Positions 4,111-30,406 of a stretch of 41,439 bases of DNA are shown in pieces. The stretch spans positions 865-42,303 of the forward strand of contig PLQW01000006.1 of the NCBI GenBank assembly GCA_003160215.1. Reading direction: 5' to 3'. The stretch is from Acidobacteriaceae bacterium. GTDB lineage: Bacteria > Acidobacteriota > Terriglobia > Terriglobales > Acidobacteriaceae. The position numbers were made by a program, and so were the translations under genes. Position 1 is the first letter of the stretch, and every line of letters begins with the position of its first letter. The notes under the pieces are model-generated. The model did not search any database. It saw nothing but the letters and a program-made list of their open reading frames with translations, and was not told the origin of the DNA.

Positions 4111-4126
4111 AGCAACTCGCGTGCCA
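4111..4126 (-). promoter_or_regulatory. Sigma-54 (-24/-12) promoter of the divergent operon
   Basis: On the minus strand the sequence reads TGGCACG-CGAG-TTGCT. This is a perfect match to the sigma-54 consensus TGGCACG-N4-TTGCW, with GG and GC at the required spacing. The predicted transcription start is near 4100, in front of the zinc-ribbon gene (4097) and its downstream genes. The neighbouring CARF-AAA+ protein is of the class that activates such promoters, so it is the natural candidate activator. Confidence 0.8.
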
Positions 4127-4180
4127 CTTGGGAAGCGGTCGTAATTCAAGATCTCAGGAATGTTGCCGGCATAAAACGAT

Positions 4181-4208
4181 TTGTATTCTGGACAAGAAGT
4201 CTTATACT
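4181..4208 (+). promoter_or_regulatory. Candidate sigma-70 promoter of the CARF regulator
   Basis: TTGTAT at 4181-4186 and TATACT at 4203-4208 are separated by 16 bases and resemble -35 and -10 boxes. Transcription would start near 4215, about 5 bases before the ATG at 4221, giving an almost leaderless message. This would give the regulator basal expression independent of sigma-54. The call rests on consensus resemblance only. Confidence 0.4.
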
Positions 4209-4220
4209 CAGGCTAAAGCT

Positions 4221-5741
4221 ATGTCTAGGATACTTGTCAGTTGGATCGGCAACACGGATCTCCGGGCACCTCACGATGAAGAAGTTGTGGGTGTTGGTCC
4301 AATTGCTCAGGCATGCTCCGCGCGGGAATTCGACCGGATCGTTCTGTTGTCAGACTATCCTGAACAAAAGATCTCCGAATACCGGAAGTGGCTGAAAAAA
4401 CGACTGACTTGCCCACTGGAGATCCATTTAAAGACGCTGTCCGGGCCGACAAATTTTGGGGAGATCTATGAAGCGGCCAGGAGTGTGGTTGACGGCCAAC
4501 TGAAGGCGGGAACAAAAAATCCTGACCTCGTGTTCCACCTTAGCCCAGGCACCCCTGCTATGGCTTCGGTCTGGATAATTCTTGGTAAAACCAGGTTTCC
4601 CGCGGAATTGATCGAGTCTTCCCAGAAGTACGGGGTCATAACCGCCTCTGTTCCCTTTGATATCGCGGCTGACTTCATTCCGGACTTGCTCAGTAGTTCC
4701 GATCAAAAGCTGAAACAGTTGAGCGCAGCGGAACCCCCGGAGATCCCTGAATTTGCGGACATTATCCATCGCAGCAGAGTAATGGCCAGGGCAATTACGA
4801 AGGCGCGGTACGTCGCTCCTCGCTCCGTCCCGGTACTGCTGGAAGGAGAATCCGGTACGGGTAAGGAGATGTTTGCGCGTTCCATCCACACGGCAGGCAC
4901 CCGGCGCGAAAGGCCGTTTGTCGCTGTGAACTGTGGGGCAATTCCTGCAGAACTTGTAGAGTCGGAACTGTTTGGACACGAAAGGGGTGCCTTTACCGGT
5001 GCCACCGAGTCGCGGCCTGGGTACTTCGAGAATGCCGATGGCGGCACTTTATTCTTGGACGAGGTTGGTGAGCTGCCCCTGGCTGCGCAAGTAAAGTTCT
5101 TGCGGGTCTTACAGGAAGGAGAAGTGAGAAGGGTTGGTGGCAAGCAAGCCAAGAAAGTCAATGTTAGGGTTATTGCTGCCACTAACCGAGATCTCATTGG
5201 GGCGATTGCGATCGGACAGTTTAGAGCTGATCTCTTTTATAGACTTGCTGTTGCAGTAATCAAACTTCCTCCGCTGCGCGAGCGCGAGGGAGACATCAGC
5301 CTGCTGATCGATCGACTGCTAGAAAAGGTAAATGCCGAGAGTGCTACCGAGCCAGGGTACAAAGATAAACTCCTTTCTGGTTCCGCAAGAAAGCTTCTGC
5401 TGCGACATCAATGGCCTGGAAATGTTCGAGAGTTGTTCAATACTCTTTGCCGGGCGGCGATATGGTGCCAATCAGAGGAGATTCAAGCAGAAGACGTCAA
5501 AGAGGCCCTCTTGCCTGAACCACCAAAGCGGGGCGGCGGGATCTTCGACAGGCAATTGGGGGATGGTCTCAATTTGCCGGAGATCTTGGAGGTGACTGCC
5601 CGCCACTATCTGGAGCGGGCCCTTGAAGAATCCCAGGGAAACAAGACCGTGGCTGCGAGACTGGTTGGCCTGCCGAGTTACCAAACCTTTACGAACTGGT
5701 TGGAGCGATACAAGGTCCGAAGTGGCAAGTCGCGTGCTTGA
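4221..5741 (+). CDS. RtcR-like CARF-domain sigma-54-dependent transcription activator
   Basis: A 506-residue regulator. Residues 1 to about 180 form a CARF-type Rossmann sensor: an N-terminal strand ending in WIGNTDLR and a second ligand-loop region in [10 protein letters not shown], as in RtcR. The central AAA+ domain has Walker A GESGTGKE (209-216), the GAFTGA loop that contacts sigma-54 (256-261) and Walker B LFLDE (D280, E281). A Fis-type HTH lies near 474-497. The frame is open further upstream to 4044, but the ATG at 4221 fits the CARF start and the promoter. Known RtcR binds RNA ends with 2',3'-cyclic phosphate, and other CARF domains bind cyclic oligoadenylates; the ligand here is unknown. 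Sigma-54 promoters on both sides (4111-4126 and 5723-5738) suggest it activates both operons. Confidence 0.9.
5723..5738 (+). promoter_or_regulatory. Sigma-54-like promoter of the main operon
   Basis: TGGCAAG-TCGC-GTGCT keeps the invariant GG and GC at correct spacing and differs from the consensus at two positions. It overlaps the last codons of the CARF regulator. The predicted start near 5749 leaves about 27 bases of leader before the histidine kinase ATG at 5776, with AGGATGG as a distant ribosome binding site. Confidence 0.6.
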
Positions 5742-5775
5742 TTAAAAATGCGAAGCAGGATGGACATGTGCAGAC

Positions 5776-8028
5776 ATGAATTCTGACCCTATTCTCGGCG
5801 ACGAATTTGCCCACGGGTCCGCGCAAGTGGTGGCGCGAGGTGCGACTGTCGTCGCCTCCTCCCCCCTCGCTGGGAAAGTGTCGGTGGGCAGCTGGACCAG
5901 ATGGATACAACCCTCCCTGCTTCCAAGTTCGTGGCTGCCGGAGTTTTTCTCGCCCTTTTACGATGCTTTGGAAAGCGCTCTTGCAGCAGAGACAAACTCA
6001 TGGGTGCCACTGCGTGAGCTCGTATTGATGCAGACCAACCTCGTCAGCTTTCAATCCGGTGAAGCACTGGACTGGGTTGCTTCCATCCAGGCGAACGACA
6101 TTCTGGTACGGCGAGTTGCTGTGGAAGAGAAGCAAACGCCACCAGAGGCGCTCGTATCCCTTCCTGAATGTGCGTTGCTGTTCTACTTCGATGACCTAGC
6201 TGGTCTCCGAGTCGATCTGTGGGACCGGCAGCTATACGGCGGAGCTGGTGCGTCGACCGCTGGCCTTTCTCAGCTCCTCGAAAGGCCCGGCGTAGACCTG
6301 GCATGGGTAGCAAGTCAACTCCAATCTGATCTTCGGGTCCGGGCTCAGCTTCGCCGTGCTGAAATCAGCAGCGGCGACGTGACGCCTTCACCATCTGCGA
6401 TTCTGGATCTTCGCCTCCAGGTTCCAGTACCAGGGGTGATGAAAGCATCTGGGATGCGGTTCCGCGCGACGACGCTTGCACAGCGTCTGATACGAGAGGC
6501 ACAGTTGCATGCACCAGAGCTCGACGTTTGGCCGCGAGACTTCCTCTTGACTGGGGCAACTCTCGAAGAACGCCTTGACCAATTCGAAGAGTACCTATCG
6601 GACGAGCCGGCGTTACGGGATCGTCCGATATTTGTTTTAAGTGGTCATGCAAGCAGCAGTCAGTTATTCCTGAGAACCCTCCGTGGGCCGGCGAAGACAT
6701 GGACGTACTCGCCCGAGAGCGAGGAACCAGGTTTATTGAAATGGCATGCTTGGCTGGAGTCCGCGTCTGACGATTGGCACATTTTCAATAGCCTTGCTGG
6801 AGACAGGGACCTGCCCGACAATCTCGCGAAGGCGATGAGTTGCCTCATTGACATCGGCCTGGATTTACCACCGTTTCGGTTTTGGCGCCAGATTTATCAA
6901 GAGATCATGAGCCTGCCAGAAGGGATCTCCCCTGCAGATTGGGAATATGCCATCAGTGCTCTCCTGCGCGTACAAGAGCGGATCGCGCCGGGAGACTTCA
7001 GTATTGAGCTGGGCACTCGGGCCACATCCAAGACGATTTACAAGGTCAGGTTGGCATACGCTCCGTTTGTAGCCATCAAAGCACTTCTCGAAGATGGGAG
7101 CATTCGAATTTACCTGCTGTCCGGTCCGGATCAAACAGAGGCACCTCTTGCCTCTCGCATCCTGCTTGAGCAGGTTGCTCGCAATCTAGCAGCTATTCTG
7201 GGTCGCTCAGTCCAATTCAGCGCCGAAGTTGCGCGACGGGAATCCCTTCGGAGGATCAGAGAGATCAAGCACACGCTTGCAAGGGTACTTACGAACACAA
7301 CCCAGGGGTTAGAGGACTTGCGCCGTTTTGCTTTCCGAAACCCGGATGTGGCAGGAGCTCTGGTCCCTGACGACCGGACTGCTGAACAGCGTGCACAGGC
7401 CCGAGGGGCTAGTATTGATGAGTACCGGATGGTTGCACATCTATCGCGGATTGAGGAGTCGCTGACCCCGCTGAGATCGCTGGCGCAACAATTGAATCGC
7501 CTTAGCCTCATCCACAAGATGAACGCACTGTTTCCGGAGCGTATCCGAATCGAAGATATCGTTAAGCACGGACTGGAACGATTCTGCGTAGGCTATCCTG
7601 ACGTCGATATCCGGTGCGACTCAGATGTTAGCGCCTTAAATGCTGAGGTCGCAGGAGATAGCACTCTGCTTGCGGAAGCGTTCGATGAGGTGCTCTCAAA
7701 CGCGGGACGCGAGTTGAAGCAACAATCTCGTTCACGGCCGTCGATCCTCGCGTCCATAAATGTCTTGAATGAGACCGTAGGAATTGCAATACGGGATAAC
7801 GGTCTACCCCAACAGTCGCGGTTAATCGAGAACCCATTCGAGGAAGGTACGTCTGCATACCATCAAAGTGGCGGTGGCAGTGGTTTCGGGTTGGCTATTG
7901 TGAAGGCAATCTTTGTGAAGCACGGTGGTGATTGTTCTCTTGAACCGAACGTCGACCAATGCACTGGTAGCAGGGTGGAAGGAGTCACATTTCTAGCGAC
8001 GCTTCCTCTGGCTGGAAAGGCTCGATAA
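5776..8028 (+). CDS. Histidine kinase-like ATPase (GHKL C-terminus)
   Basis: A 750-residue protein whose C-terminal 200 residues form a histidine-kinase catalytic domain. The N box is FDEVLSN (636-642), the G1 box has DNG, an F box reads NPFEEG, and the G2 box GGGSGFGLAIV starts at about 699. A dimerisation helix before it carries H499 in IKHTL, the likely phospho-acceptor, although the box is not canonical. The first 480 residues are an unrecognised soluble region with no membrane segments, so the signal is probably intracellular. The receiver gene follows after 3 bases, making a two-component pair. It is the first gene of the main operon, so the pair may gate the defence machinery downstream. 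Confidence 0.8.
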   Translation: MNSDPILGDEFAHGSAQVVARGATVVASSPLAGKVSVGSWTRWIQPSLLPSSWLPEFFSPFYDALESALAAETNSWVPLRELVLMQTNLVSFQSGEALDWVASIQANDILVRRVAVEEKQTPPEALVSLPECALLFYFDDLAGLRVDLWDRQLYGGAGASTAGLSQLLERPGVDLAWVASQLQSDLRVRAQLRRAEISSGDVTPSPSAILDLRLQVPVPGVMKASGMRFRATTLAQRLIREAQLHAPELDVWPRDFLLTGATLEERLDQFEEYLSDEPALRDRPIFVLSGHASSSQLFLRTLRGPAKTWTYSPESEEPGLLKWHAWLESASDDWHIFNSLAGDRDLPDNLAKAMSCLIDIGLDLPPFRFWRQIYQEIMSLPEGISPADWEYAISALLRVQERIAPGDFSIELGTRATSKTIYKVRLAYAPFVAIKALLEDGSIRIYLLSGPDQTEAPLASRILLEQVARNLAAILGRSVQFSAEVARRESLRRIREIKHTLARVLTNTTQGLEDLRRFAFRNPDVAGALVPDDRTAEQRAQARGASIDEYRMVAHLSRIEESLTPLRSLAQQLNRLSLIHKMNALFPERIRIEDIVKHGLERFCVGYPDVDIRCDSDVSALNAEVAGDSTLLAEAFDEVLSNAGRELKQQSRSRPSILASINVLNETVGIAIRDNGLPQQSRLIENPFEEGTSAYHQSGGGSGFGLAIVKAIFVKHGGDCSLEPNVDQCTGSRVEGVTFLATLPLAGKAR

Positions 8029-8031
8029 ATC

Positions 8032-9039
8032 ATGGCTGACCTGAACTTCTTTATTGTCGAAGATCACGACCAAGAGGCTCGGACTCTTCAAGAAGCCTTA
8101 CTAGATTTGGGCTTCGATCGTTGCCTCGGTGTTGCGAAGTCTGCGCTAGCAGCACGCGAGGAGATCATGACACATCGCGCCGAAACGGACCTAGTGTTTC
8201 TGGATCTGAGTATTCCAATGTCAGGGGAAGGCTCCCGAATCGACAACAACGTTGGATATGAACTGCTTGATTGGATTCACACGGATCTGAACCGGCCGGG
8301 CTTGCGCAAAACTAGAGTCGTTATTGTGTCGGGACAATATGACCTGCCTCCCGGTATTCCTGACCAGAAATTTCAGAGCGGATTTGAGGGAACATTGATC
8401 GGCATCGTCCACAAGGATAGCCTGAAGTCTGGACTTGGGCACATCGCGGCGATACTTAATCGTGACCCACTGTTGGAAAACCTCATAAGGCTTCAACTCG
8501 ACATCGTCGCGGAATATCAGACACTCCATAGTTCTGGAGCTTCCACGAAAGATAGGTGCCAGGCGGCGAAATTGATCGCATGTCGAATTCTCATGAACGA
8601 CGGTGATTACCGCGCCAAGCAGCTCGGAGCCTGCCAGTACGGCGATAATCTTAATACCGCGATCAAACAGGTTATTGAGCGGCGATTCAAGAGTGAAGAA
8701 GGGAAAAAGACTTACATTGATAAGAAGAACATGGCCCTCGGCCAGAAGTGGGAAGAGTTTATCTGGCGGGGCTCCATGTTGGAGCACCTGTATGGGATAA
8801 ATAACTACAGGAACCGGTTCGAGCATCTCGCCCAGCAGCCATACACTGACGAGTTCAAGAATGATGAGTGGGAAATTCCTTTAGAACTCGCAGAGTGTTT
8901 CTCTCGGGGTGACGACGTGGTGGAGATCCTTCAGGTGAAAGTCAGAGCGTTACTACGTTGGTATTTGCCCTGGCACGAACAAGTCTATCGACCCTGGGCG
9001 AGCAACCAGGAAGTAGGCAAGAAGGACGTGCGACCTTGA
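8032..9039 (+). CDS. Response regulator receiver protein with possible HEPN output domain
   Basis: The N-terminal 140 residues are a receiver domain: acidic VEDHD near residues 9-13, phospho-acceptor D58 in VFLDLS, the Thr/Ser position in VIVSGQ, and a Lys in VHKDS. The remaining 190 residues are mainly helical, with no recognisable DNA-binding HTH. Within them NYRNRFEHL contains R260-x4-H265, the pattern of the HEPN ribonuclease active site. If real, phosphorylation by the adjacent kinase could control an RNase instead of transcription. The HEPN reading is inference from one motif. The stop overlaps the TTG start of the next gene. Confidence 0.8.
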   Translation: MADLNFFIVEDHDQEARTLQEALLDLGFDRCLGVAKSALAAREEIMTHRAETDLVFLDLSIPMSGEGSRIDNNVGYELLDWIHTDLNRPGLRKTRVVIVSGQYDLPPGIPDQKFQSGFEGTLIGIVHKDSLKSGLGHIAAILNRDPLLENLIRLQLDIVAEYQTLHSSGASTKDRCQAAKLIACRILMNDGDYRAKQLGACQYGDNLNTAIKQVIERRFKSEEGKKTYIDKKNMALGQKWEEFIWRGSMLEHLYGINNYRNRFEHLAQQPYTDEFKNDEWEIPLELAECFSRGDDVVEILQVKVRALLRWYLPWHEQVYRPWASNQEVGKKDVRP

Positions 9040-9413
9040 CTAGGGATCGAGTTTTGGAAACGCTTCATCAAGTCCCGTCGGGTGCCTCACTTGCGCAGAT
9101 CCTGTCAGAACTTCAAATAAATGGTCGTTCTCAAGAGGGATCAGCTGTGGAGGCTTTGCTCGTCCTTTCCCCTGAAGTCCGCCTCATCGATGGACGTTGG
9201 CGACTCATTGAAGTCGCGCGTCGAGACCGTATTTTGGCAGCGGTCGAGGCGTATGCGTCGACGACTGGCAAGAAGCTTTTTCGGGCCGCGGCAGCTCTCG
9301 ATGGACTGTCATTAAAGGATCAACCTACGATCGAGGAGCTAAAGGGAGTCTTGGCGTCGAGCGGTGGCCGATACAGCTTGCTACCGAATGCAATGATCAA
9401 GAGGAACGACTAA
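9036..9413 (+). CDS. Small winged-helix-like protein, unknown function
   Basis: About 125 residues starting at a TTG that overlaps the TGA of the receiver gene; GAAGGA upstream can serve as ribosome binding site. The frame extends upstream to an ATG at 8958, but that would lie deep inside the receiver gene. The N-terminal part (RDRVLETLHQVPSG, then ILSELQ) resembles a winged-helix layout, and a second helical unit follows. It sits directly in front of the methyltransferase, with its stop one base before that gene's GTG. A DNA-binding or subunit-bridging accessory is possible. No family was recognised. Confidence 0.6.
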   Translation: MTRDRVLETLHQVPSGASLAQILSELQINGRSQEGSAVEALLVLSPEVRLIDGRWRLIEVARRDRILAAVEAYASTTGKKLFRAAAALDGLSLKDQPTIEELKGVLASSGGRYSLLPNAMIKRND

Positions 9414-9414
9414 G

Positions 9415-11292
9415 GTGACAACTAAACAGAAGAGCATAAACGGAAATGACGACATTCTCGCTGCCGCGGCGAAGACGCTCGTCGACACTTTGGGATTTAG
9501 TGACACCCGAATGATTGACCTAGAGGGTGAACGATGTCTTCTGGCCGTCCTGGACAATCATCCGGCGATTCTCGTCTATTCGCCTGGTTCAAGTGAAGTC
9601 ATAACGGCTGCGGATGAAGAGTTCGCGCAGCAGCTTGGAGCTGTTGTACTCGATGGTCCGGCCGACTACGTTTGGGCAACTAAGACTGGCAAACCGGGGG
9701 ACGGATATTTTTACTGTTGGTTGCCGGGGAGGGAGTGCCAGGTCAGCGGCGTGCCGCCCGCGGCGGAATTTAAGGGCGCAGGAAGGCCACACCAGGCACA
9801 GCGCGCCAAGGGCGACCCAACCAGGTTCAAAGAGCTTCAGCGGGAATTTGATGAGCTTCACGAGCGAATCTATGCGGCACGGGAACCAATCGACGGTTCG
9901 AACGACCTAACGGCCCAGCTGTGCAAATGCATCTTCCTCAAGATGCACCTCGAACGAAACCGTGACTTTCGCGTGCCTCCCGGAGACAAGCTTTTTGAAG
10001 AGGTTTTTGAACCCGCTTATATCCGGAACGCAAAGGGACTTGCAGTCGAGGAGATAAAACGGGCCTTCGATACAGCGAAGGCGTTACCCGAATATCGTTT
10101 CAAAGACGACAAGGGGCACGATTTTCAAATCTTCGATACACGAGATTTCATTAAATTCAATCAGCCCGAGACGTATGCCCGAATAGCCGAGATGCTAAAT
10201 CGACACCAGCTCACAAATCCCGACGAAACTGGACTGGAGGACGACATTCTCGGCCGTGCTTTCGACGTCATGTTGCGGGCGAAGTTCGAGAGTAAAGGTG
10301 GCATGGGGATCTACCTAACACCTCAACAGGTCAGGGACGCGATGGTCCAGATGGCCTTTTACGACATTCTGAAAGAGGATCCTGGCACCATCACTCGTCG
10401 TGATCCTGTCACTGACGACCTTGCATTTCGCGTCGGTGATCCATGCTGTGGTTCCGGTGGATTTCTTGTTACTGCAATGCGGGAGGTACGCAAGTACGTT
10501 GACAGGCTTGTTGGGCTGTCAGACAAGCAGCGTCATGATCTCTTGAGCGAAATCTACTGGCGCGGATTTGAAGGGTCAGACAATTCCCCAAACATGGTGT
10601 TACTCGCAAGGATCAACCTTGCTTTGCACGGAGATCCTAAGTCTCGCGTGTACGAAGCAAAGAACTCTTTGACAGAAGACTATTACGTTCCGGAAAGCTT
10701 CGACTTAATCCTGACAAATCCGCCATTCAAGAAGGGTGGTATCAAACAAGAGGAACAACCTGAACTCATAGCAACTTTTTGTTCGGATGTCATGAATAGA
10801 CGACCATCTATGAGCGGCGCCGGGCTCGCTCTCGGGGCCAAACCAGACAGCAACGGTAATTGGACTCCAGTGAAGAGCGTTGATCCTGCAGTTCTTTTCA
10901 TTGATCGCTGTCTTCAACTTCTGAAGCCGGGCGGGAGACTGCTTATTGTTGTCCCAGACGGAATCCTGTGCAATTCAGGTGACAGGTATGTGCGCGAATA
11001 CATCATGGGTCGGAAGGATGAATCTACAGGACAGTTCGTTGGTGGAAAGGCGATCGTCCGAGCTGTCGTGAGCCTGCCACAAGTGACCTTCAGACTCTCT
11101 GGTGCCGGTGCCAAAACCAGTTTTCTTTACCTTCAGAAAAAGCGCGCAGGAGATGAGCAAGGTCCGGTTTTCATGGCCGTTGCGAGCGAGGTTGGATTTG
11201 ATGTCAAGCAGAATAAAGAGGTACTTACCGGTGTGAATGACCTGGTGAAGATCGTTGAGGCTTACAAGGTCGGTCCGGCACCGGACCGGTAG
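9415..11292 (+). CDS. HsdM-like N6-adenine DNA methyltransferase
   Basis: A 625-residue type I-style DNA methyltransferase. A helical N-terminal HsdM domain (about 140-290) precedes the TP-type motif GIYLTPQQV. The SAM-binding motif I is DPCCGSGGFL (from D342) and the catalytic motif IV is NPPF (435-438), marking a gamma-class N6-adenine enzyme. The first 120 residues are an extra N-terminal domain. It starts with GTG one base after the previous stop, behind GAGGAA. With the HsdS-like protein at 20199 it should methylate a bipartite site, giving self DNA a mark. No fused restriction subunit is nearby, so restriction must come from other genes of the operon. Confidence 0.9.
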   Translation: MTTKQKSINGNDDILAAAAKTLVDTLGFSDTRMIDLEGERCLLAVLDNHPAILVYSPGSSEVITAADEEFAQQLGAVVLDGPADYVWATKTGKPGDGYFYCWLPGRECQVSGVPPAAEFKGAGRPHQAQRAKGDPTRFKELQREFDELHERIYAAREPIDGSNDLTAQLCKCIFLKMHLERNRDFRVPPGDKLFEEVFEPAYIRNAKGLAVEEIKRAFDTAKALPEYRFKDDKGHDFQIFDTRDFIKFNQPETYARIAEMLNRHQLTNPDETGLEDDILGRAFDVMLRAKFESKGGMGIYLTPQQVRDAMVQMAFYDILKEDPGTITRRDPVTDDLAFRVGDPCCGSGGFLVTAMREVRKYVDRLVGLSDKQRHDLLSEIYWRGFEGSDNSPNMVLLARINLALHGDPKSRVYEAKNSLTEDYYVPESFDLILTNPPFKKGGIKQEEQPELIATFCSDVMNRRPSMSGAGLALGAKPDSNGNWTPVKSVDPAVLFIDRCLQLLKPGGRLLIVVPDGILCNSGDRYVREYIMGRKDESTGQFVGGKAIVRAVVSLPQVTFRLSGAGAKTSFLYLQKKRAGDEQGPVFMAVASEVGFDVKQNKEVLTGVNDLVKIVEAYKVGPAPDR

Positions 11293-11330
11293 GGACATAG
11301 AGGGCAGCGAGTTGTTGTCGGGATCCGCTA

Positions 11331-12947: not shown

Positions 12948-14016
12948 CGTCGGTATCGGCCTGACACAGCTGGTGCTTTGGTATGACGCGACCCGAATGC
13001 AGGTGTGGCCGGCCTTCTTGGCTCAGATTCCTGCGGATTTGACATTGCCGTCGGCAACCGATTTTGGCCGACGCTTCGACACAGAGCGCATGACGGACCG
13101 TCGTCATGCTGCGGCCGAAAAGATCGTGCGGAATCTTCCAGGCCTGGAACAGAGGGAGGATCGCTTAGTCTTGAAGGGAATCGGACTCCTGACCAAAACT
13201 GAGCACGGTTACACCCTGTCCCGTGATGGCGCCGAATTGAGACAATCTTACCTCGCTGACCCGAAGGGTAAAGCATGGCTGCGGTTGCTAGCTCGTCTAC
13301 TTCTGCTTAGGGAGCCTCGTACGCGAGTCCTGGTTCGCCTGATGAGCCAGCTCGATGCAACTCTGGTTTTTGACGGCGACGGTTGGTTTGCCGGGAGTAT
13401 ACGCAAGGCATACGTAGAAACGGCAAATGTACGAGTCTATGTCTTCATTGGTGACCACCCGACGGACCTCGGTCTCCGTACCATTCTTAGAGAACACAGC
13501 TGGTGGGCGCTTGGAGAGTGGCGCGCCGACAAGCTCCTCGCCGGAGCAACAAACTGCTTCTTCACCGGCACTCTTCAGAAGGAACTATCGCTCCACGATA
13601 TCTCTTTGGCATTACGTGGACCTCTTGAACTTCTTTTTCACCTCGGCGTTCTCGATGTTTCCTCGAATAAGTGCAGGCTCAACACGGTCAGCAGTACTCA
13701 GGAGCTTGGAAGCGACATCGCGGCGGACTTCGGTTGGACAAGCAGCGTCGACAAGCAAGATGTGGAGGCGCTGCTCCACCGGCTCCTTGCAGACCTGCGC
13801 TCTGATACTGGCTACGTAATTGCATCTGAGCTTCGACGTGCTCTCCTGCATGAAGGAATCGCGAACCCGGATGCTGAGATTGCTCGTCTGCAAACAGAGG
13901 ATCGCCTCGTTATCGAAGCCGAGGATTACGGCCAGGCGCGCCATGGTGAAGGGTTGTTCGGTGATCCTCGAAAGCAAATGGTGCAAATTCGGCTTGTCTC
14001 AAGGAGTCATGCATGA
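12937..14016 (+). CDS. Unknown 359-residue protein, possible winged-helix domains
   Basis: The gene starts inside the end of the previous one (11-base overlap) with AGGAG nine bases upstream. Its ATGA stop/start junction with the next gene indicates tight co-translation with the 1377-residue NTPase. The N-terminal part has an Arg-rich helical segment followed by GIGLLTKTEHGYTLSRDG, which looks like a winged-helix wing. The C-terminal part (VEALLHRLLADL to TEDRLVIEAED) resembles a second winged helix. It may link the NTPase to DNA or to the methyltransferase complex. No family was recognised. Confidence 0.65.
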   Translation: MSTDVGIGLTQLVLWYDATRMQVWPAFLAQIPADLTLPSATDFGRRFDTERMTDRRHAAAEKIVRNLPGLEQREDRLVLKGIGLLTKTEHGYTLSRDGAELRQSYLADPKGKAWLRLLARLLLLREPRTRVLVRLMSQLDATLVFDGDGWFAGSIRKAYVETANVRVYVFIGDHPTDLGLRTILREHSWWALGEWRADKLLAGATNCFFTGTLQKELSLHDISLALRGPLELLFHLGVLDVSSNKCRLNTVSSTQELGSDIAADFGWTSSVDKQDVEALLHRLLADLRSDTGYVIASELRRALLHEGIANPDAEIARLQTEDRLVIEAEDYGQARHGEGLFGDPRKQMVQIRLVSRSHA

Positions 14017-18146: not shown

Positions 18147-18154
18147 GAGCCAAG

Positions 18155-21632: not shown

Positions 21633-21635
21633 CCG

Positions 21636-23339
21636 ATGCCAACAAATACTGAATACTTAGGCCGCTTGATTGGCAACACCGGTAAACCAAATGACCTGAA
21701 GGCTGCTCTCCGCGGATCGTTCGCCGCTCGTCGAGGCGAGTTCGTTCGCATCCCGCACAAGGAACGTGAAAACGATCCTGACACAGACTGCTTGGGCCGT
21801 ATCACTGCCGTTTCGCGTCACAATGTTCTTTTTTCGCAAGATCTTGGCGAAGGCGTCAGCGAGGTGAACGTTCTGCCGGGATCACTGGCCAGTGGTGAAA
21901 CCTTGTATGGCGCCATAGAGCTTATCGGATACAAAGACCCCAGTACGGGAGAGATCAGGTTGCCACGTCGTCCTCTAGACCCTGGGGCACGCGTGTATGG
22001 AGTTGATTTTGAGTTCCTTCGTCGCTTTTACCAATTCAGCGAGGAGACGTCGATCCACATTGGAAATTTGGTCGGCTACGAGAGCGGCGCGCGCACGGTG
22101 CCGATCTACCTGGACGTAAACACACTGGCAACCGAACACCTTGCGGTTCTCGCAATGACGGGCTCAGGAAAGTCCTACACGGTCGGGCGAATTATCGAGC
22201 GGCTCGTAGCTCAAATGAATGGGACCGTCATCGTTTTCGATCCGCACGGTGAATACGGCAAAGCATTTGCTAAAGGACAACTGCAATTCAACGAAGGCTT
22301 GAGCGAGGTGACCGACGCCAGAGATAAAGAGATGCTGGAGCGCATCGTTCAGAACCTGCGGAAGCTGCAAGAGAAAGGGGGCGGCATCCGGGTCTACACT
22401 CCACAGCAAGCAGCCTTCGACAATAAGTATTCCGACAAGAACATTCACCTCGCATTGCAGTTCGACCAGCTCGATGCGGAAGATCTGAGCGGGATTCTCC
22501 CAGGTGTTTCTGAACCGCAAATGCGGGTGCTCGATGCCTGCTTCCGCAAGTGGAAACGTGAGGAGCCGAATCCGCCACGGGACGTGAACACACTCCTTGA
22601 CCTGCTTGGCAGACGCTTGGATGAGGTCAAGAACGATCCGGAACTGAACCTAAGCCCGGAGGAGCAGAGAGCGCTGAGCGCGCGGAGTGCTGCTATCGTC
22701 GGTATTCGCTTACGCCGCGTAGTCGATGAAGCCAAGTCTTTCTATTCGAAGGCGAGCGGTACACCCACCGACATTGGGAACCTCGTGGGGCGACGCGCAA
22801 CCAATGAACCTGGCCGTCTGGCGATTATCGACTTACAGGGCCTATCGGACGAAGCCAGGCAAATTATTGTAGGCCTGCTGTCGAGCGAGATTCTCGATCA
22901 GGCTGCGAGCAAAACTGATCCTATTCGCCCCTGCTTCATTGTCTACGAAGAGGGGCATAATTTTGCGCCAGCCGACGGCTCGTCGATGAGCCGCGGCGTA
23001 ATAAAGAAGATAGCCGCTGAAGGTCGGAAATTTGGTGTTGGATTTGCAATCATCAGCCAACGCCCCAGCAAACTCGATCCGGACGTGACCAGCCAGTGCA
23101 ACACGTTGATTACAATGCGGATTAAGAATCCCGACGATCAGCGGTTCATCGTGAAATCGACCGAACAGCTCAGCCAGGCCGACATCGATGAACTGCCGGC
23201 GCTTTCTACCGGAGAAGCCTTGATCTCGGGCCGTTCGATTCCCGCCCCTCTGCTCGTCAGGGTAGGAACAAAGGCTCTCATTCACGGCGGCGAAAGTCCC
23301 CGGATTCTGGACGAATGGGGGCCGGGGAGATTGCTGTGA
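21636..23339 (+). CDS. herA: HerA-family hexameric DNA-translocating ATPase
   Basis: A 567-residue HerA/FtsK-class ATPase. An N-terminal beta-barrel (HAS-barrel) region is followed by Walker A MTGSGKSYT (about 174-182) and Walker B FIVYEEGHNFAP (E438-E439). The GHNF segment after the acidic residues is typical of HerA. The C-terminal part has SQCNTLITMRIKNPDDQ and an arginine-finger-like region. HerA forms a hexameric ring that pumps DNA and works with NurA-type nucleases; a NurA-like gene lies two genes upstream and a PD-(D/E)XK-like gene overlaps its 3' end. A translocation role in restriction is inferred from this. Confidence 0.9.
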   Translation: MPTNTEYLGRLIGNTGKPNDLKAALRGSFAARRGEFVRIPHKERENDPDTDCLGRITAVSRHNVLFSQDLGEGVSEVNVLPGSLASGETLYGAIELIGYKDPSTGEIRLPRRPLDPGARVYGVDFEFLRRFYQFSEETSIHIGNLVGYESGARTVPIYLDVNTLATEHLAVLAMTGSGKSYTVGRIIERLVAQMNGTVIVFDPHGEYGKAFAKGQLQFNEGLSEVTDARDKEMLERIVQNLRKLQEKGGGIRVYTPQQAAFDNKYSDKNIHLALQFDQLDAEDLSGILPGVSEPQMRVLDACFRKWKREEPNPPRDVNTLLDLLGRRLDEVKNDPELNLSPEEQRALSARSAAIVGIRLRRVVDEAKSFYSKASGTPTDIGNLVGRRATNEPGRLAIIDLQGLSDEARQIIVGLLSSEILDQAASKTDPIRPCFIVYEEGHNFAPADGSSMSRGVIKKIAAEGRKFGVGFAIISQRPSKLDPDVTSQCNTLITMRIKNPDDQRFIVKSTEQLSQADIDELPALSTGEALISGRSIPAPLLVRVGTKALIHGGESPRILDEWGPGRLL

Positions 23340-23947
23340 CGAAATCCACCGTGTCCAGGACTGTTGACATCGAGCAAGCGCTCCAGAAAGAGTTTAGAAC
23401 TCTGTCTGCCGCGAATGCAGATCTGCCGATGTTGACTGAGTGGGGAGTCGAGTCATTTAGCGAGAGAATCCACTCACTGGGCATCAATTACTTGGCACAG
23501 ATTGGCCGTCGTGCCGGCTATGTTGCGGTCTCGGAGTATCCGGTTAGCATGGCTGTCCCGGCTCCAGTACCCGTCTCCCCTTGTTGGGTCATTCCCGATG
23601 TAGTGTGGTTTGATCGCACCACACGCCGAGTACCTCTGATAGGCGAGTTTGAACGTTACGAACCGGGCGGAAACAAGCATCAGGTGCTGAAAGAAAAAGT
23701 ACGAAACCTGCTTTGGGCACACCGTGAGCTCGGCACTGAACCTCGTGTACTACTACTTCTCCTTTGGACGATGTCCGGTAACCCAGTTCACGGGCTGGAC
23801 GAGTTTCGATCACTTGTACGCACGGGTTTTACGACTCCCGGCGGAGCAGGAATCAACGGCCTTGAACCTGAATCCAGATTTGCGATCGCGACAGCAGTGT
23901 TTACGACGTTCGAGGGCTGCCTCCGTCTTAAGGAGATCCTGCTGTGA
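23336..23947 (+). CDS. Small PD-(D/E)XK-like nuclease candidate
   Basis: The GTG start overlaps the HerA stop (GTGA), with GGGGAG upstream. The 203 residues contain IPDVVWFD (D88), a turn, then LIGEFERY (E104, E106), a helix with several Lys and Arg, and a strand RVLLLLLW. This is the strand-acid, ExE, helix order of PD-(D/E)XK nucleases; ExE instead of ExK occurs in some restriction enzymes. Direct coupling to HerA makes it a good candidate for the cutting subunit, especially as the NurA-like protein seems degenerate. It is a remote-fold guess from a short motif. Confidence 0.6.
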   Translation: MTKSTVSRTVDIEQALQKEFRTLSAANADLPMLTEWGVESFSERIHSLGINYLAQIGRRAGYVAVSEYPVSMAVPAPVPVSPCWVIPDVVWFDRTTRRVPLIGEFERYEPGGNKHQVLKEKVRNLLWAHRELGTEPRVLLLLLWTMSGNPVHGLDEFRSLVRTGFTTPGGAGINGLEPESRFAIATAVFTTFEGCLRLKEILL

Positions 23948-25539
23948 GATTCGAGAACCTCGCTGCCGGAGTCACTGTCGGTGGGAAGTATCGCCTGGAT
24001 GAGATCCTTGGACGTGGCAGCTATGGTGACGTTTGGAAGGCGAAGGTACTCTGCGATGATCAGATGCCGGAATATGTCGCGATCAAGTTTTTCACGAATC
24101 AGGACCGCGCCCTGAAAGTGTACTTGGATGAAGCTGACCGTATTCGGAGCTTGGACCATCCAGGCATTGTAAAGATCTACGAAGCGGGAAAACTCGATGG
24201 TCTCGCGATGATTTCGATGGAATATGTGCCCGGTCACACTCTTTTGCAGCGCTTGGGCGACAGTGAGAGTCCAAAGCCGGTTTCGCTGAATGAAGCATTG
24301 AACTGGGCCCAAGAGATTGCGGAGCTGCTCGCGTACCTACACGATCGACAGCCGGCTGTAATGCACTGCGACTTAAAGCTGGACAACTTGTTGCTCGGTG
24401 ATCAAGGAAGAGTTCATCTAATCGACTTCGGCCAAAGCCGCACGATAGAGCGGCTCTTCGTGGAAACTTCTGGGGTGGGTGCTTACCCATACCTAGCGCC
24501 GGAGTTGCTGGGGCTTGATCGTGATAGAAAAAGCCGCCGATACCTCCAGAGCGATGTTTATGCGTTTGGGGTAATCCTGTATCGAATGCTTACAGGCTCC
24601 TTCCCACGTGCGACCCTCATGGAAGTGCATAACCTGACTCCGATCCGACGGCCATCCGAGGTGAATCACCGAATTCCGAAGCAGCTCGAAGAATTTGTAA
24701 TGGCGTGTTTGGAAACACGACCCGATCGACGTCCGGCAAATGGCAAGGAACTTCTTGGGAGGCTACTGTCCATACGTGATGAGCTAGTCGCTCGTGTCAC
24801 TTCCGACGTAACGCCGACTCCGGCCAGTGTTGAACGGGTTGTCGGCCAAGCCGACCTCGTCGCTGATTTGGCAAGACAGTTGCTTCAAGAGGGCAAGGTC
24901 GATGAAGCGATCGACCAGCTTGAGCGCGCCTTGCAGCGTATGTCAACCGCTCCGACAGTCCTTATGGTCTATGCTGAGGCAGCGCGAAGGGCTAAGAAGT
25001 TTGACGCGGCACGCCTCGTCTATCAACGAATTAGGCATTTCCTAGAAATGCAGGGGGCCTCTGACGACGTTCTTCGAGAAGCGATCGAGGGCTTTGGCGA
25101 AGTATCGGTCCAATTGAAGAAATACGAGGAAGCGGCTGAATCGTTCCAATGGTTAGTGGCGCGATGGCCAAATAAGAAGTGGTATCGCTTCCGGTATGGC
25201 GTGACTCTGGGCGTTGCCGGTCAATACAACAAGTCTCTTGAGATCTTAATTACTTTGCAGCAGGATCATCCCGGGCTCGCGGCCATCTGTGCGAAGATCG
25301 GATTTGCATACCTGCAGCTGAAGCGATATGACGAAGCGAAGCAGTATTTCAATGAGGCGCTAATGCTCGATGAGCATGATGCATTCACTCTTTATCACCT
25401 TGCCCGGCTTAGGGCGCTTCAGGGCCGTCCTGATCTTGCTGAACGATACTATGAGCGGCTGCTAGGAGTAGATGAGGCGACGGACTTGGCGGCTGAGCTG
25501 GGTCGGCTTCTCGGTAAATCTACCTCGGTCGGGGACTAA
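23944..25539 (+). CDS. Ser/Thr protein kinase with C-terminal TPR repeats
   Basis: Starts at GTG in the GTGA junction. Residues about 15-280 are a Hanks-type kinase: glycine loop GRGSYGDV (from G23), Lys48 in VAIK, catalytic HCDLKLDN (D143), DFG at 161-163 and the APE motif. The usual HRD Arg is Cys, so it is a non-RD kinase and may not need activation-loop phosphorylation. Residues about 310-520 hold at least four TPR-like helical pairs (for example AKIGFAYLQLKRYDEAKQY) for protein contacts. It may phosphorylate itself or other subunits as an alarm or licensing step. Kinases occur in several phage-defence systems, such as BREX type 2 (PglW). Confidence 0.9.
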   Translation: MRFENLAAGVTVGGKYRLDEILGRGSYGDVWKAKVLCDDQMPEYVAIKFFTNQDRALKVYLDEADRIRSLDHPGIVKIYEAGKLDGLAMISMEYVPGHTLLQRLGDSESPKPVSLNEALNWAQEIAELLAYLHDRQPAVMHCDLKLDNLLLGDQGRVHLIDFGQSRTIERLFVETSGVGAYPYLAPELLGLDRDRKSRRYLQSDVYAFGVILYRMLTGSFPRATLMEVHNLTPIRRPSEVNHRIPKQLEEFVMACLETRPDRRPANGKELLGRLLSIRDELVARVTSDVTPTPASVERVVGQADLVADLARQLLQEGKVDEAIDQLERALQRMSTAPTVLMVYAEAARRAKKFDAARLVYQRIRHFLEMQGASDDVLREAIEGFGEVSVQLKKYEEAAESFQWLVARWPNKKWYRFRYGVTLGVAGQYNKSLEILITLQQDHPGLAAICAKIGFAYLQLKRYDEAKQYFNEALMLDEHDAFTLYHLARLRALQGRPDLAERYYERLLGVDEATDLAAELGRLLGKSTSVGD

Positions 25540-25547
25540 GAGCTGCA

Positions 25548-27785
25548 ATGGCCATTGAAAAACCAGAAAATCCGGAAACGGGGTTGTCGAATGAACAACT
25601 GCTGACACTGCATCAGTTGCAGTTGTTGCAGTGGCTGGAGAGCAGGAAGCGCACCGCTCTGAGTAAGGGAGACTCCAAAGCCGAAACAGCTGCTGGGAGT
25701 GAGATCGTATCTGACCGTTGGACGTTAACGAGGGGAGTCGAACTGTACCCTTGGCAAATTGACTGTATTCGCAGTTGGTTCGATTACGGTTGTAGAGGCA
25801 CAGTCAAGGTAGTGACTGGCGGTGGCAAGACAGTGCTGGCGCTCGCAATTGCCGAGAAACTTCAGAATGAAAGAGACCCGCAACTGCGAATAGCAATCGT
25901 TGTACCGACGATTGTTCTGATGAATCAATGGTATGAAGAATTCGAGCAGCGTTCGAATCTACCTATGTCGGCGGTCGGACGGCTCGGCGGAGGATTTAGC
26001 AACAGTTTCGAGGACGGACACAAGGTGTTGATCTGTGTTCTTGCGAGCGCTTACAAGTTGTTGCCACCTCTGGTTAATGAGCAGATCGGCAAGCATCTTC
26101 TCTTCATAGCGGACGAATGCCATCGCGCGGGTGCGACCGAGATGTCGAAAGTTCTCGCCGTGCTGAGGGCCTACTCGCTCGGGCTCTCCGCAACTCCGGA
26201 GCGCGATGAGGACGAGGAAGAAGAAGGTTCCGAAACGGTCGTTTATCGCGATTCTCAACTCGGCAGGGCGTTGGGCGATGTGGTTTACGATCTAACGCTG
26301 GCCCAGGCAGTTGAATTGGGCATCGTCCCTAAGTTCACAATTCGACACTACGGCTTGGCCCTGACGGGTGACGAGGAGCAGAAATACGAGCGCCTAAGTC
26401 GCATGATTGAAGAAGCCAGGAAGGAGCTCCAACACTCCGCGTCACCTGGCCGAGGTTCAGGGTTGGCTTTTTATCGATGGGTGAGGTCGGTATCCAAAAA
26501 ACGAGGCTCCAGGACAAACACCTTGGCTGGCAGATTTCTCATGGATACGCGTGAGAGAAAGGACCTTCTGTATCGAATAAAAGCTCGACACGCTGCCGTC
26601 GAGGAATTGTTGAGGCAAGAATTCAAAAACCAGCCTCAGAGCCGTGCGATCCTGTTCCACGAAAGCATCGACTCAGTGATGGAGTTGTTCGAGAGCCTGC
26701 GTCGTGCTGGCTTTGCTGTGGTCGCTGAGCACAGCGACCTCCCAGATAGCTTCAGAGAACAGAGCCTGGAACTGTTTCGCCGTGGGATTGCCAATGTGGT
26801 TGTCTCGGCCAAGTCCCTGATCGAAGGTTTCAACGTGCCGGCTGCTGACGTAGGCATCATCGTAGCGTCTTCGACTTCTGTACGACAACGTATCCAGAGT
26901 CTTGGACGGGTACTTAGGAGACACCGGGGACCGTCCGGTGAAGAGAAGACCTCGATCATCCACGTTTTGTATGCACGCAACACGGTGGATGATGCAATCT
27001 ATGCCAAAACGGATTGGGAAGAGTTTACTGGGGCGGACAGGAACGAGTATTTCGTATGGGATCCGCCGGAGAAGCCAATCCCCCAAGAGGAGCCGCCGCG
27101 CGTACCTCTTCCGCGAGACTTAGAAATCGATATTTCACAGCTCAGGCCTGGAGATGTATACGAGGGACAGTACGAAGGCACAGAGTACAGCTGTGATATG
27201 CAAGGAAACATCAGAGATGCTCGCGGATGCTATGCGAATAATCCGGGGCCTATTCCTGAGCATGTCCGCTCTGTTAAAGGTACCGCTGGTCGATTCAGGC
27301 TGACTCCACATCGCAACATCGTACTGGTGCGCGTTCCGGAGGGCGAAGACTGGACTACCAGATTTGTGATGGTTTTGGACGTTCCATTCGATTTCTCCGA
27401 AGGTCCTCCACTTGGCGGTCGCCTCGATTGGTCGGAACACGAGAAGTGGCTCAAACAGGCTTCAAGCGGAGATGAATATCCTTTCCAGCAAATAGATACT
27501 CGAATGAAATTGAACTTCCGCCAGCGTCGTGGTGGCGTAATCTCGAAGCGCATTCCAAACGGCGAGGCTTATGCTCGCGTTGCAAGTGAGGCCGCCGATA
27601 TAGTCAAAGGCGAGGATGCAAAGCACCTACTTGAGGCTTGCAAGCGCCTGCAAGCCCGAGGCCTTTTTAGCTCGCAATTCGCAATCAACTCAATGAACGA
27701 TGCAGTATTCCGGAATGGTGGAAAACTTCTTTTCCTCTCACACTTGGAATCGGGGTTGGAATTTCCAGCAAGTCCGCATGAGTAA
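25548..27785 (+). CDS. SF2 DEAD/DEAH-type helicase with extra C-terminal module
   Basis: A 745-residue superfamily 2 helicase. Motif I is TGGGKT (90-95), motif II is DECH (189-192), motif III is SATPE, and the second RecA domain holds FNVPAADVGII and motif VI QSLGRVLRR. The first domain resembles the type III restriction/UvrB-like ResIII group. After the helicase core (about 500) comes an extra C-terminal region. A segment starting near G581 (GRFRLTPH) resembles the repeated module in the next two proteins. It probably unwinds or moves along DNA in the restriction step. No nuclease domain is fused. It starts 8 bases after the kinase. Confidence 0.85.
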   Translation: MAIEKPENPETGLSNEQLLTLHQLQLLQWLESRKRTALSKGDSKAETAAGSEIVSDRWTLTRGVELYPWQIDCIRSWFDYGCRGTVKVVTGGGKTVLALAIAEKLQNERDPQLRIAIVVPTIVLMNQWYEEFEQRSNLPMSAVGRLGGGFSNSFEDGHKVLICVLASAYKLLPPLVNEQIGKHLLFIADECHRAGATEMSKVLAVLRAYSLGLSATPERDEDEEEEGSETVVYRDSQLGRALGDVVYDLTLAQAVELGIVPKFTIRHYGLALTGDEEQKYERLSRMIEEARKELQHSASPGRGSGLAFYRWVRSVSKKRGSRTNTLAGRFLMDTRERKDLLYRIKARHAAVEELLRQEFKNQPQSRAILFHESIDSVMELFESLRRAGFAVVAEHSDLPDSFREQSLELFRRGIANVVVSAKSLIEGFNVPAADVGIIVASSTSVRQRIQSLGRVLRRHRGPSGEEKTSIIHVLYARNTVDDAIYAKTDWEEFTGADRNEYFVWDPPEKPIPQEEPPRVPLPRDLEIDISQLRPGDVYEGQYEGTEYSCDMQGNIRDARGCYANNPGPIPEHVRSVKGTAGRFRLTPHRNIVLVRVPEGEDWTTRFVMVLDVPFDFSEGPPLGGRLDWSEHEKWLKQASSGDEYPFQQIDTRMKLNFRQRRGGVISKRIPNGEAYARVASEAADIVKGEDAKHLLEACKRLQARGLFSSQFAINSMNDAVFRNGGKLLFLSHLESGLEFPASPHE

Positions 27786-27791
27786 AGGGTT

Positions 27792-28490
27792 ATGCCTCTT
27801 GTATACAGCTTGGGTTTCACGCCGATCAAACCGCGGACGTGGCGGGGACGCTATGGAAGAATTCCCGGGGGACTCAGTGTGCTACATCTTCGTCACAACC
27901 AACGTCACAGTGGACCCTGGCCGTACGCACTTATGACCGACGATGAGGACCGAGGCACCTGTTGGGCGCTAGACTCTCCGGACATTGAGAAGCTTGTTAA
28001 AGCAGTACAGAGTGGTAAGCAGATGTTCGGGCACTACGCGAGCGGCTCCTTCCTTGTGAATGAGTACGGCCAAGTGCTCGTACCGGCCAGCGACGGTGAC
28101 GGTCGTTGCGCTTGGGTAGGGACAGTACAAGGTAAGCTGCAGTTTAAGAATCCGTTCGACAAGGATGCCATATACGATCTATCGGACGACCAGGGACTAG
28201 CTCGCGGCATGGTATGGAAGCGACCCTACGTCGGTTCCAAATACAACTGGTCGTATCAGCATGGTATTCACTTTCGAAATGAAGATGACGGCGGCAGATT
28301 CAACACGATCTGCCCCCATCAAGACAACGTTCTGATTGCCGCACTGCAAGAGGTACGCAGTGAGGGGTATATTCGGTTTATTGTGAATCCGCATGGCCTG
28401 GTTTTAACAAAAAAGCAAGTCGACGGCATATGGAAGCCGATCTACGTCGGTCGGTTGAACTATAAACTGTGGTTTGCTAGAGAAGAGTGA
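27792..28490 (+). CDS. Small protein with two repeated NEY-type modules
   Basis: A 232-residue protein of unknown function starting 6 bases after the helicase, with AAAGGG upstream. Two short modules of about 35 residues repeat: GSFLVNEYGQVLVP (from residue 85) and RFIVNPHGLVLTK (from about 195). Each is followed about 10 residues later by a VG strand and a final aromatic residue. The same pattern occurs twice in the next protein and once in the helicase C-terminus. The modules look like small beta units. An internal ATG before TDDEDRG is an alternative start. The function is probably binding, either to the helicase or to nucleic acid, by inference from the shared module. Confidence 0.65.
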   Translation: MPLVYSLGFTPIKPRTWRGRYGRIPGGLSVLHLRHNQRHSGPWPYALMTDDEDRGTCWALDSPDIEKLVKAVQSGKQMFGHYASGSFLVNEYGQVLVPASDGDGRCAWVGTVQGKLQFKNPFDKDAIYDLSDDQGLARGMVWKRPYVGSKYNWSYQHGIHFRNEDDGGRFNTICPHQDNVLIAALQEVRSEGYIRFIVNPHGLVLTKKQVDGIWKPIYVGRLNYKLWFAREE

Positions 28491-28494
28491 GCTT

Positions 28495-29181
28495 ATGCCA
28501 ATCCGTTTTGAAGGTAATTGTCCTTCGGTAGTCCTCAAAACTGGAAAGTACCACGTAAGGCTTCACGGTGGACCAAAAGTCAGCATTCCGCACGATGCAG
28601 ACGAGCTAGAGCGATGGATGCTGTCCTCGAAAGAGCATCCCGCACTGATCGAGATGGTTAATGCCGTGAGAACTGAGATGAATGAGGACCCTGGTGGTGC
28701 CTTTTACATTAACGAATACAAGCAAGTGCTAGTGCCCAACCGACGGGAGAAAGTGTACTACCTAGCTGGCATCTACACAGAACCTCTCCGGTTTTTGTTT
28801 GATGATGGTTCACGCATGGTAACAATCAGCGGTGAACCAATCGACCGAGATGGGAATCCGGTACCCCAGCTCGGTATTTGGCCTGGAATCCGCCAAGGTA
28901 TTCCTTACGTATTGGCGGCCGGTGGCCGCGAGATCTATTACAAGTACTCGCCCCGCCCCGATGTTGAGCGGACTGTGACATTGAGCAAGCACATTGGCGA
29001 CGCGGCTACTGAGAAGATTGCTGCTAGGGTTCGGCAAGTGAAGGGCTTTCAAGGCGGTCGTTTCTACATTAACGAATGGCGTGAGATGTTCGCACCCAGA
29101 GGCGAAGATGATCGAACAGCGTATTACTATGTCGGTCATCTTGACATCGATGAACCATGGTTCCCCAACCCAAATCCTTAA
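28495..29181 (+). CDS. Paralogous small protein with two repeated NEY-type modules
   Basis: Starts at ATG 28495, four bases after the previous stop; the frame's earlier starts lie inside the neighbouring gene. The 228 residues contain two copies of the module: GAFYINEYKQVLVPN (from about 68) and GRFYINEWREMFAPR (from about 188). Both are followed by a YY-x-G strand and an aromatic residue. It is a paralogue of the preceding gene, most similar in the repeats. It is the last gene of the main operon, and 565 bases without a clear gene follow. No catalytic residues were recognised. Confidence 0.65.
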   Translation: MPIRFEGNCPSVVLKTGKYHVRLHGGPKVSIPHDADELERWMLSSKEHPALIEMVNAVRTEMNEDPGGAFYINEYKQVLVPNRREKVYYLAGIYTEPLRFLFDDGSRMVTISGEPIDRDGNPVPQLGIWPGIRQGIPYVLAAGGREIYYKYSPRPDVERTVTLSKHIGDAATEKIAARVRQVKGFQGGRFYINEWREMFAPRGEDDRTAYYYVGHLDIDEPWFPNPNP

Positions 29182-30402: not shown

Positions 30403-30406
30403 TGAG

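Follow-up and report, generated by a model that had tools for sequence, protein, structure and literature searches.

Does the 16-gene operon at positions 5776-29181 (+) of a 41,439-nucleotide stretch of Acidobacteriaceae DNA encode a defence system in its own right, or does it belong to something already named? The stretch (hereafter, the window) covers positions 865-42303 of contig PLQW01000006.1 in a 5.34-Mb draft genome that is 93.8% complete. A sequence-only reading had proposed a possible new defence island here, controlled by a CARF-sigma-54 switch. The first part of this proposal was supported: similar gene orders are shared by phylogenetically distant bacteria and by two IMG/VR viral contigs, and no named-system model fits the core. 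Conservation beyond this genome, on checking, extended to 11 loci (window included) in five phyla and the two viral contigs, with genes in similar order. Four of these loci share a long layout (type A), namely, the window (Acidobacteriota), a Desulfobacteraceae genome (G448; Desulfobacterota) and two Verrucomicrobiota genomes (G449 and G454). The remaining seven share a shorter one (type B) and come from Natroniella, Halanaerobium, Lyngbya, Acidobacteria SZAS-3, Blastocatellia SSF51 (G121) and the viral contigs. We put the chances at about even that the operon represents a conserved, as yet unnamed, methylation-associated anti-invader system, one that would act like the methylation-associated defence system (MADS) or bacteriophage exclusion (BREX) while being neither.

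Gene content of the operon

The operon starts 34 bases past the end of a CARF regulator gene. Its 16 genes lie on one strand, most of them overlapping or no more than 10 bases apart (maximum, 38). Several gene starts were picked by comparison with relatives; that of g12 was taken as the ATG at 23315. The genes are, in order:

5776-8028 (+): HK, histidine kinase with an HsdS-like N-terminal domain (HATPase_c, E 4.8e-12; HsdS profile comparison)
8032-9039 (+): RR, response regulator with a receiver domain and a helical C-terminal domain carrying YRNxxEH (HEPN-like, unconfirmed; homologs in G449 and G454)
9036-9413 (+): g3, small protein (38-39% homologs in three type A loci)
9415-11292 (+): M, HsdM-type adenine methyltransferase (N6_Mtase, E 6.8e-26; PADLOC MTase_I, E 1.4e-145)
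11331-12947 (+): g5, type A only as far as seen (27-31% homologs in G448 and G454)
12937-14016 (+): g6 (homologs at 42-44% in type A and 25% in Natroniella and Halanaerobium)
14013-18146 (+): N, 1377-residue P-loop nucleoside triphosphatase (NTPase; Walker A/B residues invariant in 9/9)
18155-19036 (+): g8, fast-evolving (type A homologs, 29-30%; type B partners, 11-16%, assigned mainly by position)
19033-20202 (+): g9, NurA-fold protein and putative HerA partner (predicted model matches NurA 2ygk, E 1.4e-11)
20199-21632 (+): S, HsdS-type specificity subunit (Methylase_S, E 2e-4, at the cut-off; PADLOC Specificity_I, E 3.4e-32)
21636-23339 (+): HerA translocase (DUF87, E 5e-40; 60-75% identity in 10 other loci)
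23315-23947 (+): g12, D..ExE PD-(D/E)xK-like nuclease candidate (E71, D92, E108-x-E110 and K125 invariant in 9/9)
23944-25539 (+): STK, Ser/Thr kinase with TPR repeats (Pkinase, E 4.2e-39; best PADLOC match mad6, E 2.1e-51)
25548-27785 (+): SF2, PbeA-like superfamily 2 helicase (ResIII, E 1e-21; PADLOC PbeA, E 1.4e-58; 50-51% in two type A relatives)
27792-28490 (+): g15, paralog of g16 (hhalign, 98.1%; 40-45% homologs in two type A relatives)
28495-29181 (+): g16, paralog of g15 (hhalign, 98.1%; 46% homolog in G448)

The Pfam domains of the operon are HATPase_c, Response_reg, N6_Mtase, Methylase_S, DUF87/HerA, kinase plus TPR, and ResIII/Helicase_C. Thus, the parts named beforehand (methyltransferase, specificity protein, HerA ATPase, NTPase, kinase with TPRs, SF2 helicase and two-component pair) were all borne out by Pfam and PADLOC matches or by Walker motifs. 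The PADLOC matches considered for M, S, STK and SF2 were the best 25 of longer lists. Six of the window proteins (g5, g6, N, g8, g9 and g12) gave nothing credible in PADLOC 2023, in NCBIfam of June 2026 (which includes MADS models) or in Pfam.

Related loci

A query with the N protein led to G121, and an alignment of the window and G121 HerA proteins then turned up eight genuine relatives among the collected genomes and two in IMG/VR; an alignment search with g9 returned the same two viral contigs. One further entry (L032) proved to be the G121 locus again, and two candidates were dropped, namely, L033 (a weak HerA fragment match) and G712 (a match covering 53 of 1401 N positions). Neither plasmids nor viral contigs gave a match to the N protein query, and no plasmid or phage record carried a HerA of at least 60% identity.

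Type A loci follow the order HK-RR-g3-M-g5-g6-N-g8-g9-S-HerA-g12-STK-SF2-g15-g16, so far as their contigs reach. Type B loci have M and/or S (in the six loci whose contigs extend to this region), followed by an X or Y gene, N, g8, g9, HerA, g12 and STK. The X and Y genes are related to each other (97.8% profile match), and comparison of g5 with their proteins gave no match (hhalign, 5.3% and 0.3%, respectively). In G121, an HsdS-like protein (preS) is encoded upstream of g3 and M and matches S (94.1% profile match). The type B operon of this genome also has an insertion, a DUF1016-like gene (PADLOC PDC-S02, E 2.4e-125; L011, 14435-15604) that separates S from the Y gene. A close SF2 homolog was absent from the type B stretches read; at L027, a downstream open reading frame (ORF) of 993 codons is 27% identical across some 200 residues of helicase sequence. 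As read by eye, the operon of one viral contig appears to be followed by phage tail and lysis genes, and that of the other by an integrase-like gene.

HerA was found at all 11 loci. N and g9 are each present at 10 (both fall outside the G449 contigs), as is STK (the G454 contig stops after HerA), and g12 is present at 9 (the G454 contig ends before it). Identity to the window proteins, counting partial sequences, was 72-75% in type A and 60-64% in type B for HerA, 66-67% and 44% for M (with a single full-length type B protein), 54-61% and 25-34% for g9, 37-42% and 21-25% for N, and 23-25% and 23-27% for S (the S of L026 was not scorable). A specificity subunit at 23-27% beside a HerA at 60-75% fits the expectation of diversifying pressure on target specificity.

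The system is rare and patchily distributed. The N protein was found in 2 of 396 phylum-sample genomes and in 1 of 61 near relatives, the window's own genome being included in both counts. The N profile was found in 2 of 349 class-sample genomes (the own genome and one weak fragment) and in 1 of 237 and 1 of 230 genomes of two further phyla, these being G448 and G454 themselves.

Core proteins

Residues G60, G62, K63 and S64 (Walker A) and D210 and E211 (Walker B) are invariant in all nine N proteins; the motif names were assigned by reading the alignment. BrxC was considered as an identity for N and rejected, there being no BrxC match for the window protein or among the nine, which gave chance-level matches only (the best was to LmuB, E 0.0049, in one protein). 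Matches of the N profile to influenza haemagglutinin (best E, 0.0034) were judged to be coiled-coil chance.

NurA is the known partner of HerA. The predicted model of g9 (predicted local distance difference test score [pLDDT], 79.5) matched NurA 2ygk first (E 1.4e-11), followed by HerA-NurA complexes and, more weakly, by chain G of TdpAB (E 4.2e-4). The g9 gene lies directly 5′ of herA in type B, and S alone intervenes in type A. Among the 10 g9 proteins, D148 is kept in 9 and H293 in all. That HerA and g9 constitute a HerA-NurA pair is supported by predicted fold and by neighbourhood. The small protein g12 matched no family model in Pfam, PADLOC or NCBIfam, but E71, D92, E108-F-E110-R and K125 are kept in 9/9 proteins, a D..ExE pattern like that of BamHI-type PD-(D/E)xK enzymes, making g12 a candidate nuclease. 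The nuclease-fold proteins announced for this locus are thus supported by fold (g9) and by motif (g12); the gene at 2417-3745, in the divergent operon described below, is a possible further case from a motif read by eye.

Two-component pair

HK homologs occur in all four type A loci, each with HATPase_c and each with a phospho-acceptor histidine, an N box and G boxes as read by eye. The first 330 residues of HK matched a profile of the operon's HsdS proteins at 95.2% (E 2.6e-8), or at 93.8% when the window S was left out. As controls, the middle and kinase parts of HK gave 0.1%, 30 column-shuffled versions gave at most 1.1%, and comparison of the N-terminus with thirteen other families gave less than 1%. 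In addition, the Desulfobacteraceae homolog matched 14 type I specificity models over residues 57-219 (best E, 3.4e-5), and one Verrucomicrobia homolog matched one such model (E 0.041). These comparisons support an HsdS-like origin of the HK N-terminus, which makes the kinase the most unusual component of the island.

The receiver of RR scored 22.9 bits against Pfam Response_reg, under the cut-off of 30.2. Its D58, S100 and K128 are invariant in the three homologs available, as is the C-terminal YRNxxEH (R260-x4-H265). The predicted RR model is of low confidence (pLDDT, 68.8), with a helical C-terminal part. One tentative possibility, which we would not favour without further support, is that the sensor is a specificity domain borrowed from HsdS, such that HK would read the methylation of invading DNA and phosphorylate a receiver-HEPN RNase.

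CARF regulator and promoters

Upstream of HK lie the following features:

4221-5741 (+): CARF-AAA-HTH sigma-54 activator of the RtcR_PspF2 type (PADLOC, E 8.7e-197; 53% identical homolog ahead of the same operon in G448)
5723-5738 (+): sigma-54-like box TGGCAAGTCGCGTGCT, upstream of the large operon (14/16 points; 5/1000 shuffles as high)
4111-4126 (-): perfect sigma-54 box TGGCACGCGAGTTGCT of the divergent operon (16/16 points; 0/1000 shuffles)
3771-4097 (-): u3, 108 residues, divergent operon (ORF, no family match)
2417-3745 (-): u2, 442 residues, possible PD-(D/E)xK-like protein, divergent operon (motif by eye)
585-2477 (-): u1, up to 630 residues, divergent operon (no family match or plasmid homolog)

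The sequence-only reading had started the regulator at 4111; its ATG is in fact at 4221, and the large operon begins after the gene. The PADLOC RtcR_PspF2 CARF_AAA_HTH match spans residues 62-558. The reading had also given each operon a sigma-54-type promoter. For the divergent operon (u3-u2-u1) this is the perfect box at 4126..4111 (-), whose score was reached in none of 1000 shuffles of the stretch, while the second box, at 14/16, is carried by its place and its recurrence. Of the 8 loci tested, window included, 6 had a convincing box past the end of the CARF gene (the window, the Desulfobacteraceae genome, and Rhodoferax, Polaromonas, Azotobacter and P. luteola plasmids), with a best score of 13-15 points that was equalled in at most 46 of 1000 shuffles. 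At the other two loci (contigs C191 and C140 of G121), the best box after the CARF gene was unconvincing. The two Verrucomicrobia operons lacked such a box ahead of HK, as did the divergent genes of G448 and G121 contig C40. The window genome has one rpoN match and, at 93.8% completeness, no RtcB match.

The claim of CARF-sigma-54 control was borne out only in part. A CARF gene precedes the operon in two of the four type A loci, the window and G448 (where CARF-HK and the remaining operon are on separate contigs). None was found in the 6 kb upstream of the G454 operon or in the visible 0.7 kb of G449, and the assemblies searched for both gave no full-length CARF regulator match. Nor was there any CARF, HK or RR match in the 40 kb around the type B operon of G121, the only type B locus in which the region upstream of M is visible. 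The core system can carry the CARF switch or do without it.

This observation bears on a different view of the locus, in which the CARF regulator is the defining element and the operon is interchangeable cargo of RtcR-led defence superoperons. Superoperons headed by RtcR have already been published together with coiled-coil nuclease tandem (CoCoNuT) systems, and there (PMC11090510) the CoCoNuT superoperons are headed in the same way, with a CARF-AAA-HTH activator ahead of a long defence operon and type I restriction-modification genes often adjoining. The same regulator family also heads CoCoNuT-like and type I restriction-modification operons on plasmids, and the sigma-54 box recurs after it. 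However, no CoCoNuT was recognised in the window, and the core has no adjacent CARF gene in G454, with none visible in G449 or in the 40 kb of G121 either, which argues that the core is an independent system and the cargo a different, self-standing one. We consider the cargo view quite unlikely.

Several further observations concern the regulator family and the divergent genes. The CoCoNuT-like operons (VWA, PP2C, kinase and AAA genes, with DUF2357 in one) are on the Rhodoferax and Polaromonas plasmids, and the type I genes are on the Azotobacter and P. luteola plasmids (L053-L056). G121 has three full-length CARF-sigma-54 regulators (one match with an internal TGA) and one broken copy (L047, L048, L049 and L050), none of them on the contig bearing its type B operon. 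A fusion of a TM0106-family RecB-like nuclease with a helicase adjoins CARF in G448 (divergently) and HK in G454 (L046 and L064); on the P. luteola plasmid, an annotated TM0106 gene lies about 15 kb from the CARF gene. Homologs of u2 (37-39% identity) are encoded on three Nostoc plasmids; u2 matched no family apart from one MutS2 match judged to be chance, and its motif makes a nuclease fold possible. For u1, there was no family match and no homolog among the plasmids searched.

Comparison with known systems

MADS, whose architecture is taken here in part from model names, has a methyltransferase, a specificity protein, a protein kinase and a HerA-type ATPase in one large operon. The island shares all four and, presumably, methylation marking; unlike MADS, it has N, the NurA-fold g9, g12 and the HsdS-like histidine kinase. 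Might it nevertheless be a divergent MADS-like system, of common descent and the same logic, in which MAD1, MAD3, MAD4 and MAD7 have been replaced by other families? M, S and STK do match NCBIfam MADS2, MADS5 and MADS6, at 130, 113.6 and 140.4 bits, respectively, mad6 ranks first among the PADLOC matches of STK, and those of HerA include mad8 (E 6.7e-28). However, these scores are far under the cut-offs (720, 400 and 460 bits), and eight generic HerA models outscore mad8. Moreover, the MADS2 model matches 236 of 392 phylum-sample genomes at E ≤ 0.001, with none passing the cut-off, so that such a match says little. No MAD1, MAD3, MAD4 or MAD7 match was among those listed by PADLOC and NCBIfam for 20 window proteins, and mad4 was unmatched in the whole window genome. 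The resemblance to MADS that had been suggested for this island therefore holds for three proteins, at scores far below the cut-offs, and not for MAD1, MAD3, MAD4 or MAD7. In our estimation, common descent with MADS is a real contender, albeit an unlikely one.

The PADLOC mad4 model has 110 positions and finds matches in or beside AAA ATPases or other genes in 21 of 297 genomes (L013, L015, L016 and others). Given this scatter, a mad4 match alone is no sign of MADS. Another genome, G199, was considered as a MADS locus and rejected, having M- and S-like matches only.

A large ATPase and a methyltransferase are also common to BREX and to a BREX-related capture variant, the latter with HerA (PMC12839542). 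The island differs in that no PglZ was among the matches listed and that N has no BrxC match. DrmA, DrmB and DrmC of the defence island system associated with restriction-modification (DISARM) were likewise absent among the PADLOC matches listed for window proteins. The HsdM and HsdS families are shared with type I restriction-modification, but there is no HsdR: SF2 reached 22 of 284.55 bits with the hsdR model, its best PADLOC matches being to PbeA, and no HsdR fusion was among the matches listed. The lack of PglZ, DrmB and a fused HsdR, on which the case for a new island had partly been built, was thus confirmed within the matches listed. Finally, HerA/FtsK capture systems (PMC10853773) and HerA-NurA pairs such as TdpAB likewise combine HerA with a nuclease-fold neighbour and a large NTPase. 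Unlike them, the island adds HsdM and HsdS, a Ser/Thr kinase and, in type A, the two-component pair; an Orc/CDC6 match was not found for N. The gene set was not recognised in titles or abstracts among the literature matches listed, preprints being mostly outside their scope, and a description could exist.

Flanking genes

Directly downstream of the operon, at 29747-33049, are PRTRC genes (protein E, protein B and a ThiF family protein) with scores above the NCBIfam cut-off, pointing to a plasmid or an integrative element. Further along, a protein at 35002-35889 has a weak, sub-cut-off similarity to endonucleases of group I introns, and 37680-39155 (-) encodes a group II intron reverse transcriptase/maturase (TIGR04416, 349 bits versus a cut-off of 300). 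One could accordingly suppose that a single promoter serves two modules that are not related, one a methyltransferase pair resembling type I systems and the other a HerA-NurA DNA-processing module, and that their role is maintenance of a plasmid or integrative conjugative element and not defence. The PRTRC genes and the group II intron close downstream speak for this. Set against it, M, S, N, HerA and STK are linked in both type A and type B, the two copies in viral contigs had no PRTRC-like match in the flanks examined, and the nuclease candidates appear better suited to conflict. We regard this explanation as very improbable.

Proposed mechanism

For the unnamed anti-invader system that we favour, gene content and order, the promoter boxes, the g9 fold and the HsdS-like kinase N-terminus are directly supported, and all activities are what we infer from them. 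HsdM and HsdS, to judge from their families, would methylate the host's own sites. N, together with g6 and g8, may form a sensing and assembly unit, and HerA would pass unmethylated invader DNA to g9 and g12 for cutting, with the Ser/Thr kinase presumably tuning or gating activation. Type A loci would add to this the SF2 helicase and the two-component pair. Given its HsdS-like domain in profile comparison, HK probably reads unmodified target sites; it would then phosphorylate the receiver, whose HEPN-like output might stop translation and arrest the cell as a back-up. Where present, the CARF-sigma-54 activator would raise transcription of both operons, for which boxes were found, in response to what is presumably a nucleotide or RNA-end signal (a cyclic oligonucleotide or a 2',3'-cyclic-phosphate RNA end would be candidates).

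A number of findings weigh against this interpretation, in whole or in part. Each of the three type A relatives has its operon broken across two contigs: in G454, the break falls within N and the contig ends past HerA; in G448, one contig ends in CARF-HK and the other begins with g3-M, and RR was not found; in G449, HK-RR-g3 and the start of M are on one contig and HerA onward on another. Among type B loci, g8 was assigned mainly by position (11-16% identity), and no g12 could be found in L026, although the locus has a gap of fitting size. The catalytic aspartate that we take to lie in the first strand of NurA is apparently absent in 10/10 g9 proteins, so that g9 may not cut. With respect to the two-component pair, the HsdS-like domain of HK gave 0.6% against preS of G121, though preS matches S, and the HK proteins of the window and of the other Verrucomicrobia relative match no specificity model. 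No HEPN was found for the C-terminal half of RR in Pfam or in the 50 best Foldseek matches listed, which makes a HEPN output domain conjectural. Lastly, the window has nine sigma-54 sites of at least 14 points on its two strands, several of them within genes; because such sites are common, TGGCAAGTCGCGTGCT draws its support from its position and from its recurrence after other CARF genes.

If the interpretation is correct, the operon would represent a large but rare defence system that spans phyla and includes six core proteins unrecognised by the model libraries searched. The histidine kinase with its HsdS-like domain, an arrangement not recognised in titles or abstracts among the literature matches listed, would turn the reading of DNA marks into phospho-signalling. 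Self/non-self recognition would thereby become a soluble phospho-signal that operates alongside the direct destruction of DNA.

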